From Desulfobacula toluolica Tol2 (GTDB lineage: Bacteria; Desulfobacterota; Desulfobacteria; Desulfobacterales; Desulfobacteraceae), in contig NC_018645.1 in NCBI RefSeq assembly GCF_000307105.1, positions 283,001 to 347,000 of the forward strand: 64,000 nucleotides of DNA. The letters are read 5' to 3'. A model generated the notes under the pieces. It did not search any database, was not told the origin of the DNA, and was given only the letters and a program-made list of their open reading frames with translations. The position numbers and the translations under genes are program-made. Numbering within the stretch: the first letter of the stretch is position 1; each line of letters opens with the position of its first letter. This document shows positions 15,205 through 20,517 of the stretch, piece after piece.

Positions 15205-15384
15205 GTGGCTGAACCCAAGGATATATACCAATGTCAAACAGTGAATTGCGGTTATCTTTATAATCCTGATAAAGGAGACAGAAAAGGAAAGATTGCAAAG
15301 GGAACAAAATTTGAGGATCTTCCGGATAGCTGGAGATGTCCTGTGTGCGGTGCAAGTACCAAGTCATTAAAATCGCTTGGTTAA
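15205..15384 (+). CDS. Rubredoxin, CX4C variant
   Basis: A 59-residue rubredoxin starting at GTG 15205, with AAAGGA seven bases upstream. The iron ligands are C10 and C15 (CQTVNCGY, four residues between them rather than two) and C45 and C48 (WRCPVCGA). The core [21 protein letters not shown] is classical. A CX4C first knuckle is known in Desulfovibrio rubredoxin-2. It is a one-electron carrier, here beside rubrerythrin and flavoprotein genes that could be its partners. Short length and GTG start make it easy to overlook. Confidence 0.92.
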
Positions 15385-15446: not shown

Positions 15447-16277
15447 ATGAAATGGATGCAGTTTTTTACACCTGCTAAATCGTTAGACTTTAAAGAGACG
15501 GAAAATTATATTTCTCAACATCCGGGAGAACAGATGACCATACTGGATGTAAGGCAGCCATCGGAATACCAGGATAGCCATATTCCGGGTGCCGTCCTTA
15601 TTCCTTTGCCCCAGCTGTCGGACCGGCTGGGTGAGCTTGACCCCGAGCGTCCCACCCTGGTTTATTGAGCAGTAGGAGGGCGCAGCCGTGTTGCTGCTCA
15701 GATGCTTGCCGGAAAGGGGTTTAAAAGCGTATTTAATGTGTCAGGCGGGATAAAGGCCTGGCAGGCGAAAACCGCAATTGGCCCCCAGGATCTTGGAATG
15801 GACCTTTTCAGTGGCAAAGAAGAACCTCTGGATGTGTTAAAAGTGGCATATTCTCTTGAACAGGGGTTATGCGAATTTTATAATACCATGGAAAAACAAG
15901 CAAAAAAGAAACAGGTGAAAGATCTTTTTGGCAAATTATCTGAAATCGAAGTGAAACATCAGATGTCTATTTATAAGGCATATAATGAGATCAGTGCCGA
16001 GAAAGTGAGTAAGGATAAGTTTGAAACAATGGTTGAAGCAAAGGCTTTGGAAGGTGGTATGACGACAAAAGAATATCTTGATCTTTTCAAGCCTGATCTT
16101 GATTCTGAAATTGAAGTAATTTCCCTTGCCATGTCAATCGAGGCCCAGGCCCTGGATCTGTATCAGAGAGTTGCTTTGAAAATTGAAAACAAGGAATCAA
16201 AAGCGATGGTCAATAAAATTGCCAATGAAGAAAAAGCGCATTTGGCAAGCCTGGGTAAACTAATGGATGCTCTTTAG
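15447..16277 (+). CDS. Selenocysteine-containing rhodanese-ferritin-like fusion
   Basis: Reading TGA 15666-15668 as selenocysteine gives one 276-residue protein. Residues 10-110 are a rhodanese domain (LDVRQPSEYQDSHIPGA); the catalytic loop reads U74-AVGGR, matching CxxGxR with Sec replacing the sulfur-carrying Cys. Residues 125-276 form a ferritin-like four-helix domain (SLEQGLCEFYNTMEKQA, EVKHQ, SIEAQALDLYQR, NEEKAHLASL) that could bind a di-iron site. Both halves are in the same frame with no other stop. Directly at the UGA, TGAGCAG (15666-15672) pairs perfectly with CTGCTCA (15694-15700), a position suited to a bacterial SECIS. Likely acts in sulfur or selenium transfer or peroxide defence (inference). 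Alternative: a nonsense mutation in a Cys version, less likely since codon TGA falls exactly on the catalytic residue. Confidence 0.85.
15666..15700 (+). promoter_or_regulatory. Candidate bacterial SECIS element
   Basis: A hairpin starting at the in-frame TGA: 7-bp lower stem TGAGCAG/CTGCTCA, a 21-base top containing a possible GGC-GCA-GCC mini-stem. The top does not match the E. coli fdhF loop closely, but bacterial SECIS loops vary widely between genera. Confidence 0.6.
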
Positions 16278-16362: not shown

Positions 16363-17484
16363 TTGAACAAAAATCTTGTGCTTGTCGGAGGAGGTCATGC
16401 GCATATGATGACCCTTGAAAATATCGGTAAATTTGTTGAAAAAGGGGTGAAAGTAACCGTTATAGGGCCTTCTGTTTGTCACTATTATTCGGGTATGGGG
16501 CCCGGAATGCTGGGCGGAACTTACACTCCTGAAGATATCCGGTTTGCCACCAAAGAGGTGGTTCAAAGACAGGGGGGTGTTTTTGTAAAGGATAAAGTTG
16601 TCCGGATTGATCCTGAAAAAAAACAGGTTTACACACATACAGGGCAGAAAGTTTCCTATGACGTAATCTCCTTTAATGCGGGCAGTTATGTTCCCATGCC
16701 GGAAGCGTTTGAAAATAATGATCATATATATCCGGTTAAGCCCATTGAAAAATTGATGGATGCGGCAGATAATCTCAAAGCCCTGTTTGCACAAAAAAAA
16801 ATAAATATCAGCATTGTCGGTGGCGGCCCTTCATCTGCCGAAGTTGCAGGCAATGTATGGCAGCTGGCAAAAAAAACAAACCGGCATATGCCTGATATTC
16901 ATATTTTTGCCGGTAAAAAATTCATGTCACGGTTTCCCGGGAACGTGAGATTGAAAATTATTTCCTCGCTTGAAAAAAGAGGGGTTCAAATTCATGAAAC
17001 AGGGTATGTAAAACAGATTCAACCAGATGAAATTTATTTTGAATCAGGTGACACATTTTCAACAGATTTTCTTTTTATAGCGATGGGGGTTAAGCCTTCA
17101 ACTATATTTGAGGCATCTGGTCTGCCTGTGGGGCCGGATAAAGGACTTCTGGTGAATCAATATCTTCAGTCAACAGATTATCCTGAAATATTTGGAGGCG
17201 GAGATTGTATCTATTTTGAGGATCAGCCTTTGGATAAAGTCGGGGTTTATGCGGTTCGGCAGAATCCTATCCTGATGCACAATCTGATGGCTGCCCTGGA
17301 AGGCGCTGAACTTAAGCCTTTTGACCCCGGGCCTGATTATTTGTTGATTTTCAACATCGGTGGAGGCCAGGGTGTATTAAAGAAAAATAATTTCGTGTTT
17401 GGCGGGAAAATTGCATTCATAATTAAAGACTATATTGACCGCAAATTCATGAAGAAATTTCAAGCCATTGAAAAGGTGGCATAG
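16363..17484 (+). CDS. NDH-2-like FAD oxidoreductase (SelD-N-terminus type)
   Basis: A 373-residue flavoprotein with FAD-binding LVLVGGGHAHMMTL at the N terminus, a second Rossmann motif SIVGGGPSSAEVAGN and FGGGDCIYF near the C terminus, the layout of type-2 NADH dehydrogenases and sulfide:quinone reductases. The GGGHAH start and YYSGMGPGMLGGTYTPEDIRF resemble the flavoprotein domain fused to SelD (selenide, water dikinase) in cyanobacteria and other taxa. TTG 16363 is preferred (AGGAG seven bases upstream); ATG 16357 is too close. No membrane segment is obvious. It follows the Sec-rhodanese gene by 85 bp, suggesting shared redox or selenium chemistry (inference). Confidence 0.85.
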   Translation: MNKNLVLVGGGHAHMMTLENIGKFVEKGVKVTVIGPSVCHYYSGMGPGMLGGTYTPEDIRFATKEVVQRQGGVFVKDKVVRIDPEKKQVYTHTGQKVSYDVISFNAGSYVPMPEAFENNDHIYPVKPIEKLMDAADNLKALFAQKKINISIVGGGPSSAEVAGNVWQLAKKTNRHMPDIHIFAGKKFMSRFPGNVRLKIISSLEKRGVQIHETGYVKQIQPDEIYFESGDTFSTDFLFIAMGVKPSTIFEASGLPVGPDKGLLVNQYLQSTDYPEIFGGGDCIYFEDQPLDKVGVYAVRQNPILMHNLMAALEGAELKPFDPGPDYLLIFNIGGGQGVLKKNNFVFGGKIAFIIKDYIDRKFMKKFQAIEKVA

Positions 17485-17529: not shown

Positions 17530-19674
17530 ATGAAAAAAAGTTTGGGAGTGAAAATTATACTGTTGATGGTCATCGCAGGTGTAATTGTCCTGTTTTTTTT
17601 GTTTGATCTGGACCGGTATTTTTCGTTCGTCAACCTGAAAAGTCAATTGGATTTCTTTGAGGGCTATTACCGTCAGCATAAAGCTTTAACCATGGTTATG
17701 TACATGGCAGTCTATGTTCTAATGGCGGCATTGTCTCTTCCGGGTGCTGCCGTTATGACCCTTGCAGGAGGTGCTTTATTCGGTCTGGTTTACGGAACTG
17801 TTCTGGTCTCTTTTGCCAGCACCACAGGTGCAACCCTGGCATTTTTATTTTCCAGGTATATGTTCAAAGACTGGGTTCAGCGTAAATTTTCATCAAACCT
17901 TGATGCCATTAACAAGGGGATGGAAAAAGAGGGTGGATTTTACCTGTTTGCCTTAAGGCTTGTGCCGGTGTTTCCTTTTTTTGTGATCAACCTGGTCATG
18001 GGATTAACGGCTCTTCGCACCAGTGTGTTTTATATTGTGTCCCAGGTGGGAATGCTGGCAGGAACCATTGTCTATGTGAATGCCGGAACCCATTTGGCAA
18101 AAATAGAATCAGCTGGTGGAATTTTATCGTTAAAACTTATTTTTTCCTTTGTTTTGTTGGGTATTTTTCCGATTATTGCCAGACGCTTTATATCGGCAGT
18201 TAGGCAGAGGAAAGTTTTTTCAAAATTTATGAAGCCAAAAAAATATGAGTATAACCTGGTTGTCATAGGTGCAGGCTCTGCCGGGCTTGTGGCCTCCTAT
18301 ATCGCAGCAGCCGTCAAAGCAAAGGTAGCCTTGATTGAGGCTCATCAAATGGGGGGGGATTGTCTCAATACCGGGTGTGTTCCCAGCAAGGCTTTGCTTG
18401 CCGGTGCTAAATTTCTTTCCCGTGTCAAAAGAGCAGAAGAGTACGGGTTTGACAAGGCCTCGGTAGAGTTTGATTTTGCAAGGGTCATGGAGCGGGTTCA
18501 ATCTGTTATTAAAAAAGTGGAACCTCATGATTCGGTTGAGCGGTATACCGGGCTGGGTGTGGATTGTATTCATGGTAAAGCAAAAATCATATCCCCGTTT
18601 GAAGTTTGTGTGAATGATAAAATATTCACCACAAAAAATATTATTATCGCAACCGGTGCAACCCCTATGGTGCCTGACCTGCCGGGCCTGGAAAAGATAA
18701 ACTATCTGACTTCGGATACAATCTGGGATATCAGGACCCTGCCGAAAAAACTGCTGGTGCTGGGTGCCGGACCTATTGGGTGTGAGCTGGCCCAGGGTTT
18801 TTCAAGACTGGGATCAAATGTGACACTTGTACAGAGAAGCGGCCGGATAATGAAAAAGGAAGACCCGGACGCGGCTCAGATTATTTTGGACCGGTTTCAG
18901 GCAGAGGGTATAACACTTTTTTTGAATCATTCAGCCAGAGCTATTGATGTTTTGGGGGAGGAGAAAAAACTTGTCTGTGACCATGATGGAAAAGAGGTAA
19001 AAATACCATTTGACGAAATATTGATCGCTCTTGGAAGGGTTCCTGATGTTAAGGGGGTTGGCCTTGAAGAGCTGGGGATTGAGTTGAAAGGCAATCAATC
19101 AATTAAAACCAATGAATTTTTGCAGACCAATTTTCCCAATATCTATTGCTGTGGAGATGTTCATGGTCGGTATCAGTTTACCCACACAGCAGCTCATGAA
19201 TCATGGTATGCTTCTGTGAACGCACTGTTTGGCGGATTTAAAAAATTCAGAGTGGATTACAGTATCATCCCCTGGGCTACTTTCACTGATCCTGAAGTGG
19301 CAAGGGTGGGAATAAATGAGACAGATGCAAACCTTGCCGGCATTGATTATGAAATGGCCAGATATGGACTTGCTGATCTTGACCGGGCCATTGCAGATTC
19401 TGAAGACCATGGTTTTGTAAAGGTTTTGACCGTGCCGGGAAAGGACAGAATATTGGGGGTCACCATTGTGGGGCATCATGCAGCAGATGTGATTTCCGAG
19501 TTTGTATTGGCAATGAAGCATGGAATAGGATTGAATAAAATTCTTGGGACCATCCATATTTATCCTACCATGGCAGAAGCCAACAAGTATGCAGCAGGTT
19601 TATGGAAGAAAACCCATGCACCTAAAAAATTACTTGCATGGGTCGCAAAATACCACGCCTGGGTGCGCAAGTAA
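17530..19674 (+). CDS. TVP38/DedA-like membrane domain fused to disulfide oxidoreductase
   Basis: A 714-residue fusion. Residues 1-225 are a TVP38/TMEM64 (SNARE-associated) membrane domain with LPGAAVMTLAGGALFG and LRLVPVFPFFVINLVMG. Residues 240-714 are a class I flavin disulfide reductase like mercuric reductase or dihydrolipoamide dehydrogenase: FAD motif VVIGAGSAGLVAS, redox pair C278/C283 in GGDCLNTGCVPSKALL, NAD(P) motif VLGAGPIGCELAQ, and C-terminal IHIYPTMAEANKYAAG with the proton-transfer histidine absent from the usual HxHPT position (IHIYPT instead). No N-terminal metal-binding domain and no C-terminal vicinal cysteines, so mercury reduction is unlikely. Likely a membrane-tethered reductase; substrate unknown. 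Confidence 0.9.
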   Translation: MKKSLGVKIILLMVIAGVIVLFFLFDLDRYFSFVNLKSQLDFFEGYYRQHKALTMVMYMAVYVLMAALSLPGAAVMTLAGGALFGLVYGTVLVSFASTTGATLAFLFSRYMFKDWVQRKFSSNLDAINKGMEKEGGFYLFALRLVPVFPFFVINLVMGLTALRTSVFYIVSQVGMLAGTIVYVNAGTHLAKIESAGGILSLKLIFSFVLLGIFPIIARRFISAVRQRKVFSKFMKPKKYEYNLVVIGAGSAGLVASYIAAAVKAKVALIEAHQMGGDCLNTGCVPSKALLAGAKFLSRVKRAEEYGFDKASVEFDFARVMERVQSVIKKVEPHDSVERYTGLGVDCIHGKAKIISPFEVCVNDKIFTTKNIIIATGATPMVPDLPGLEKINYLTSDTIWDIRTLPKKLLVLGAGPIGCELAQGFSRLGSNVTLVQRSGRIMKKEDPDAAQIILDRFQAEGITLFLNHSARAIDVLGEEKKLVCDHDGKEVKIPFDEILIALGRVPDVKGVGLEELGIELKGNQSIKTNEFLQTNFPNIYCCGDVHGRYQFTHTAAHESWYASVNALFGGFKKFRVDYSIIPWATFTDPEVARVGINETDANLAGIDYEMARYGLADLDRAIADSEDHGFVKVLTVPGKDRILGVTIVGHHAADVISEFVLAMKHGIGLNKILGTIHIYPTMAEANKYAAGLWKKTHAPKKLLAWVAKYHAWVRK

Positions 19675-19927: not shown

Positions 19928-19941
19928 AAAAGAAGGTGCCC

Positions 19942-20517
19942 ATGGTTAAATTCAGGGAAAGTCAGACAGCAATTAATCTTCATACCTCTTTTGCAGCAGA
20001 GACCCAGGCAAGAACACGGTATGATTTTTTTGCAAACAAAGCCCGGGATGAAGGGTATATCCAGATAGCAAAGATATTTGATGAAACAGCGAATCAGGAA
20101 TTTGAACATGCCCTGCGGTTTTTTAAATTTTTTAACGGGGGTGAGCTTGAGATCAAATGGACCTTTCCCACCGGTGTTATCAAGGATACATATGCCAATC
20201 TTCTTTCAGCGGCAGCATTGGAAAAGTATGTCAGTGAGGATATGTATGCCAAATTTGCTAAAATTGCTGAAGATGAAGGCTTTGAAAGGGCAAAAGATAC
20301 GTTTGTTAATATTATTGTTGCTGAAAAGCATCATGAAAAGCTCTACCTTGAACTGGCCGGGAATATTGCAACGGACAGGGTGATTAAAAAAGACGACGAA
20401 AGAGTCTGGCGTTGCCTGAGCTGTGGATATATTCACACTGGAAAAGCAGCACCCAGAAAATGCCCTGCCTGTGTAAAACCGGCAGGCTTTTTTGAGTTGC
20501 TGTGTGAAAACTGGTAA
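19942..20517 (+). CDS. rbr: Rubrerythrin
   Basis: A 191-residue rubrerythrin, which reduces hydrogen peroxide to water in anaerobes. The di-iron four-helix bundle spans about residues 5-145 (AAETQARTRYDFFA, ANQEFEHALRFF, AEDEGFERA, AEKHHEKLYL), and a C-terminal rubredoxin-type domain carries WRCLSCGY and CPAC. ATG 19942 has GAAGG five bases before it; an in-frame GTG at 19936 is less likely. It starts 14 bp after the ferredoxin stop, so both are co-transcribed, and a strong terminator follows. Confidence 0.95.
   Translation: MVKFRESQTAINLHTSFAAETQARTRYDFFANKARDEGYIQIAKIFDETANQEFEHALRFFKFFNGGELEIKWTFPTGVIKDTYANLLSAAALEKYVSEDMYAKFAKIAEDEGFERAKDTFVNIIVAEKHHEKLYLELAGNIATDRVIKKDDERVWRCLSCGYIHTGKAAPRKCPACVKPAGFFELLCENW

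Follow-up and report, generated by a model that had tools for sequence, protein, structure and literature searches.

A predicted selenoprotein with a rhodanese and a ferritin-like domain in Desulfobacula toluolica Tol2 and related bacteria

Described relatives and composition of the gene

Rhodanese selenoproteins are already known. Five forms are distinguished in PMC13188914, two of which (form 2 and form 4; PF00581) are tabulated with a UxxG motif. Four rhodanese selenoprotein entries are given in PMC9312934, and a row in PMC5029168 places a 'sulfurtransferase homologous to a rhodanese-like protein' among the selenoprotein families. Neither PMC13188914 nor PMC9312934 mentions ferritin or rubrerythrin in its main text, and no paper on a rhodanese selenoprotein fused to a ferritin or rubrerythrin domain was found in the open-licence PMC literature.

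The NADH-dependent persulfide reductase (Npsr) and the CoA-disulfide reductase-rhodanese proteins (4ocg, 3nta, 3icr) pair a rhodanese with an FAD/NAD(P)H oxidoreductase. In persulfide dioxygenase-rhodanese fusions (5ve3) the rhodanese is joined to a non-haem iron module; persulfide dioxygenases of this type have a metallo-beta-lactamase fold and one iron. Rubrerythrin and COG1633 proteins (PF02915; 2oh3, 1vjx, 2fzf) are four-helix bundles with the ligand pattern E, ExxH, E, ExxH. Finally, the TIGR03169 domain (Nterm_to_SelD) is fused N-terminally to SelD in other bacteria.

We analyzed a stretch of 64,000 nucleotides from the genome of D. toluolica Tol2 (NC_018645.1, positions 283,001 to 347,000), here referred to as the window. 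It carries a gene for a rhodanese joined to a ferritin-like domain (Table 1). Compared by the tabulated motif, the protein shares with forms 2 and 4 of PMC13188914 the Sec within the rhodanese and the Gly three residues further on (here U-A-V-G). It may already have been counted under one of these forms with its second domain unnamed. In Npsr a single polypeptide comprises the FAD domain and the rhodanese. Here, the two are encoded by separate genes, and the Sec rhodanese is combined with a diiron-type domain. In place of the iron module of 5ve3 the protein has a four-helix diiron-type bundle. In contrast to rubrerythrin and the COG1633 proteins, the chain lacks a rubredoxin domain and carries an N-terminal Sec-rhodanese and an invariant EGG loop.

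Table 1. Features in the window (positions count from its first nucleotide)
Feature	Position	Strand	Remarks
Rubredoxin gene	15205..15384	+	59 aa; GTG start; directly upstream; PF00301, 71.4 bits
Rhodanese/ferritin-like gene, predicted selenoprotein	15447..16277	+	276 codons and stop; Rhodanese PF00581, residues 29-108, 75.9 bits (cut-off 22.2); ferritin-like part, Rubrerythrin PF02915, residues 129-273, 56.2 bits (cut-off 22.8)
In-frame TGA, codon 74	15666..15668	+	catalytic residue of the rhodanese loop; predicted to be read as selenocysteine
7-bp hairpin TGAGCAG/CTGCTCA	15666..15700	+	15666-15672 pairs with 15694-15700; not conserved
SECIS-like hairpin, conserved	15682..15697	+	stem 15682-15686/15693-15697 (GCAGC/GCTGC), loop 15687-15692
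NDH-2-like FAD/NAD(P) oxidoreductase	16363..17484	+	TIGR03169 relative; start TTG 16363 or ATG 16357
VTT (TVP38-type) membrane domain fused to a mercuric-reductase/dihydrolipoyl-dehydrogenase-like flavoprotein	17530..19674	+	714 aa
Rubrerythrin with rubredoxin-like domain	19936..20517	+	NF045767, 228.6 bits (cut-off 200); PF21349

The reading frame of the gene contains a single TGA, codon 74, and is otherwise open. The active loop of the rhodanese, U-A-V-G-G-R, begins with the residue of this codon. In a plain ORF listing of the window only a 191-aa ferritin-like fragment starting at 15702 stands in for the 276 residues, which illustrates how such genes escape notice.

Relatives were collected in two sets, the species of which may overlap: 63 related loci from other assemblies, and 103 full-length places in 99 genomes of a phylum sample of 395 genomes. 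The family profile matched 134 genomes of this sample at E <= 1e-20, and the full-length places were picked by eye as matches that begin at model position 20 or before and reach position 265 or beyond. A further TAG or TAA is present in two of these places (L147 and L177). The window itself (L092) was left out of the hairpin and codon counts. Three loci with a partial or broken frame (L073, L082, L086) were left out of a 61-row family alignment and, together with L092, of the tree. In L086 (4001-4826), from a Desulfobacula relative, the frame is broken behind the rhodanese domain with several in-frame TGA; the coverage of its contig is 2.65, so that an assembly error is possible.

Both Pfam domains were matched in all 61 aligned members, including the protein of the window. 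The first codon of the rhodanese loop is one for Cys or TGA in all 166 places, and the loop closes with Arg in all rows except L189 (CRSGLS). A six-residue rhodanese loop ending in Arg, here Arg79, is of the sulfurtransferase type. These comparisons strongly support a gene encoding one two-domain selenoprotein, with residue 74 as the predicted sulfur-accepting residue of the rhodanese.

In the ferritin-like domain the residues E138, E168, H171, E202, E232, E262 and H265 are all present in 162 of 167 rows. The five deviating rows are two with Ser168, one with Val138, L082 at a contig end and L086 with its broken frame. The pattern E, ExxH, E, ExxH is that of ferritin-like diiron proteins, and the domain is predicted to be of the diiron type with a full ligand set. 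E202 lies in an invariant EGG loop (E202-G204) between the second and third long helices. No rubredoxin-like FeS domain was matched by Pfam in this chain, and the protein is therefore not a rubrerythrin sensu stricto.

An AlphaFold2 model of the protein had a mean pLDDT of 78.7 and a pTM of 0.77, with pLDDT below 50 in the linker (101-117) and at the N-terminus. Its rhodanese half resembles that of the persulfide reductase 4ocg (Z 10.2, 33% identity over 94 aligned residues). The closest solved rhodanese domains are led by 1yt8 (thiosulfate sulfurtransferase) and 6mxv; behind these, the closest ones include those of enzymes that handle persulfide, namely the persulfide dioxygenase-rhodanese 5ve3, the persulfide reductases 6pfz and 3nta and the CoA-disulfide reductase 3icr. 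The ferritin half matched the COG1633 protein 2oh3 with a Z of 11.2, a value at which helical bundles are unspecific. By sequence, the best solved relatives of this part were 2fzf and 1vjx.

Selenocysteine codon and RNA hairpin

Codon 74 of the 63 related loci is TGA in 56, TGC in five and TGT in two. In the 103 places of the phylum sample it is TGA in 31, the window's own included, TGC in 56 and TGT in 16. No other codon was found at this position in either set (63 of 63 and 103 of 103). On a tree of 163 rows, computed without the column of codon 74, at least 18 changes between Sec and Cys were required. Such a restriction to TGA and Cys codons combined with repeated Sec/Cys exchange is the usual mark of a selenoprotein. 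The Sec machinery is present in the genome as well, with selA (605.6 bits), selB (358.7), tRNA-Sec (selC, 76.5) and selD (360) all above their cut-offs. We consider it almost certain that the UGA of codon 74 is read as selenocysteine.

The list of selB genomes includes each of the 30 other genomes in which a TGA form occurs (matched by eye). Since 353 of the 395 genomes have selB, this co-occurrence says little, and it was dropped as a strong test.

The selD gene (L199, G000:C1:2134729-2135649) itself has one in-frame TGA (...SGUAAK) and is likely a selenoprotein gene. Furthermore, four other rhodanese genes with in-frame TGA were found in the same genome: L195 (G000:C1:2692992-2693276) with YCDUANEGTS, of the CxU type; L196 (G000:C1:3293590-3293910) with YCASSNUW; L197 (G000:C1:4795092-4795412) with LYUTMGIRSG and Sec at the catalytic place; and L198 (G000:C1:4647397-4647660), which has two TGA codons (FYUGUVDD). 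With these four candidates and the five forms tabulated in PMC13188914, the rarity of rhodanese-type selenoproteins was overstated in the initial annotation of the gene.

In TGA forms a family hairpin, CGCAGC-loop-GCTGCG, is located 13-30 nt behind the TGA. At least five of its six pairs are kept in 74 of 81 distinct TGA sequences versus 11 of 79 Cys sequences; the window's copy has five. The clearest single mark is the silent site of Ala83, where the codon is GCT in 79 of 87 TGA forms versus 12 of 79 Cys forms, while over the whole of these genes GCT accounts for 16% and 12% of the Ala codons, respectively. Compared with synonymous shuffles, the hairpin was more stable in TGA forms (median z -1.14) than in Cys forms (-0.22; p 2e-7, relatedness ignored), and the phylum sample alone gave -1.23 versus -0.24 (p 2e-5, relatedness again ignored). 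In a test on 13 independent tree pairs, the hairpin accompanied Sec in an average of 7.4 pairs and Cys in 0.1, and 5.6 pairs showed no difference (median p 0.016, range 0.002-0.22).

In bacterial SECIS elements the loop lies 16-37 nt after the UGA, and a G is among the first two loop bases. Here, the gap from TGA to loop is 18 nt, and the loop begins with CG in nearly all sequences. An Rfam scan of 15560-15800 gave no match. The copy in the window is not stabilized relative to its synonymous shuffles (z 0.0), and over 48 nt its lowest-energy fold is the 7-bp hairpin starting at the TGA, not the conserved one. Taken over the family, a role of the conserved hairpin in decoding the UGA as selenocysteine is strongly supported by these sequence comparisons.

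The 7-bp hairpin had been pointed out in the initial annotation. It does exist, but all seven pairs are found in just three of 81 distinct TGA sequences, the window's among them, and in two of 79 Cys forms. It was rejected as the conserved SECIS element and is probably due to chance.

Apart from this hairpin, the structural claims of the initial annotation agree with our results. It had placed a TGA at the sulfur-carrying residue of a rhodanese loop with intact coding sequence on both sides, as is borne out by frame, Pfam domains and relatives. The proposed selenocysteine at the catalytic position is in line with the Sec/Cys exchange, the Sec machinery and the selection at the RNA level behind the TGA. 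Homologues with Cys at this position, which it had suggested to look for along with selA to selD, were found (7 of 63 and 72 of 103). The fusion to a ferritin-like domain was confirmed by the PF02915 match and the diiron ligand residues.

Gene neighbourhood and flavoprotein partner

The oxidoreductase encoded directly downstream aligns over the full 365 positions of TIGR03169, but with 270 bits it stays below the cut-off of 310 and it is not fused to SelD; due to this score it is regarded as a relative and not as a member of TIGR03169. Its best solved match is the NDH-2-type 9pxk, followed by a CoA-disulfide-reductase-type enzyme and FSP1.

In 56 of the 63 related loci the gene of this flavoprotein follows downstream at a distance of no more than 300 nt. 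Among the other seven, the contigs of L029, L069 and L082 end within 75 nt, the broken frame of L086 obscures the actual distance, and no flavoprotein match was found in the flank of L059, L079 and L080. Of 102 places in the phylum sample, 22 have the flavoprotein on either side at a distance of at most 400 nt. With a threshold of E <= 1e-45, a TIGR03169-like gene is present in 43 of the 395 genomes, that is in 32 of the 99 genomes with the rhodanese-ferritin family and in 11 of the 296 without it (Fisher p 5e-13, relatedness not corrected). It is not obligatory, since 67 of the 99 family genomes do without such a gene at this threshold. No clear tie to Sec was seen (14 of 31 Sec genomes versus 18 of 68 Cys-only genomes, p 0.10).

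In another genome, G046, a TIGR03169-like oxidoreductase gene (G046:C102:46499-47587) has one in-frame TGA and possibly encodes a further selenoprotein; the rhodanese-ferritin profile had no match there at E <= 1e-20.

Of the 63 related loci, 23 have a rubredoxin gene upstream of the family gene (22 within 500 nt, one partial match); for the most part these belong to the closest relatives. The VTT-flavoprotein fusion, whose position is shared mainly by the closest relatives, and the rubrerythrin follow in many of these loci.

Neighbours in the phylum sample were surveyed as same-strand ORFs of at least 70 aa within 250 nt, with the flavoprotein group excluded; 44 downstream and 49 of 52 upstream neighbours were scanned (three long upstream ORFs were left out). 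Among the families listed, only FA_hydroxylase occurred in more than four neighbours (9 of 49 upstream), counted without a background control. These fatty-acid-hydroxylase-family genes adjoin L110, L114, L117, L126, L127, L128, L130, L131 and L137 upstream, and one adjoins L099 downstream. They stand beside both Sec and Cys forms, and that of L127 is weakly OlsE-like, below the cut-off. Stress-type neighbours among the families listed, likewise counted without a background control, were peroxiredoxin (2 of 49) and Ni-superoxide dismutase (1 of 49) upstream, and Fe/Mn-superoxide dismutase and FUR (each 1 of 44) downstream. Additionally, the Cys forms L175, L176 and L177 have proteins of one cluster (454-468 aa) encoded 31-74 nt downstream. 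For the protein next to L175, models of metallo-beta-lactamase (GloB) and of rhodanese gave matches that all stayed below cut-off; in this it resembles persulfide dioxygenase-type fusions.

Putative function

From these data we would propose the following mechanism. Sec74 would take up sulfane sulfur from persulfide, polysulfide or thiosulfate as a selenosulfide, formed within the six-residue loop that contains Arg79 and is of the sulfurtransferase type. The diiron centre in the C-terminal part would deal with peroxide/O2 or iron. The neighbouring flavoprotein would pass electrons from NAD(P)H and reset one or both centres; the selenosulfide of Sec74 might be reduced directly or via rubredoxin, which is present in Desulfobacula-type loci. 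Rhodanese-ferritin protein and flavoprotein together would thus be a split, selenium-based relative of the NADH-dependent persulfide reductase, extended by a diiron module, and might serve against oxidative and sulfane-sulfur stress in anaerobes. Persulfide/selenosulfide chemistry coupled to iron or peroxide fits the composition of the protein, and we infer a selenosulfide/peroxide redox chemistry that would be fed by the flavoprotein. For the whole picture of a Sec74/Arg79 rhodanese, a diiron module and a reset by the flavoprotein we estimate a probability of about 0.5. Only tentatively, and with some doubt, would we go further and propose a new enzyme class in which a Sec perselenide/selenosulfide on a rhodanese is coupled directly to a diiron centre of the same polypeptide and is returned to its starting state by an NDH-2-like flavoprotein, itself a relative of the SelD-fused domain.

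The protein could also be a selenium-boosted peroxidase of the rubrerythrin type, in which Sec74 reduces peroxide through a cycle via selenenic acid, while the rhodanese fold serves as a mere scaffold and transfers no sulfane sulfur. The rubredoxin upstream and the rubrerythrin downstream in the window would suit such an enzyme, as would the peroxiredoxin, superoxide dismutase and FUR neighbours elsewhere, but the latter are few and come from the counts without background control. The loop with Arg79 is of the sulfurtransferase type, and no resolving Cys was seen, with no invariant or near-invariant Cys besides position 74 in the 61-row alignment. On balance we regard this peroxidase as unlikely, though it is the alternative to be taken most seriously.

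Less probable again is a function in selenium handling, by which the rhodanese would carry a perselenide and, together with the TIGR03169-like flavoprotein, feed or recycle selenium for selenophosphate synthetase. The partner is related to the SelD-fused domain (270 bits to Nterm_to_SelD) and associates with the rhodanese-ferritin family across genomes, and in the fusions covered by PMC4561486 an NADH-dehydrogenase-like domain is by far the commonest partner of SelD. However, the partner stays below the TIGR03169 cut-off, SelD is encoded elsewhere in the genome, and the flavoprotein accompanies Cys forms too. With selB in 353 of the 395 genomes and the full-length family in 99, a general factor of Sec synthesis is not indicated, and the diiron domain would be left unexplained.

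That the TGA is a real stop, a mark of gene decay or a sequencing error is hardly credible: the 191-aa fragment of the plain ORF listing would suit it, but TGA recurs at this codon in 56 of 63 related loci and 30 of 102 further places (86 other loci), the Sec machinery is present, the frame with its catalytic and iron residues is kept on both sides, and the RNA hairpin persists in TGA forms, whereas most Cys forms no longer have it.

The rhodanese-ferritin family is widespread, with full-length members in 99 of the 395 sampled genomes of the phylum. With its natural Sec/Cys pairs it lends itself to a test of selenium in place of sulfur at a persulfide-type active site, and the family offers a partner for the group of TIGR03169-related oxidoreductases. 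If the proposed enzyme class holds true, sulfate reducers would possess a persulfide (or peroxide) reductase based on selenium and iron.
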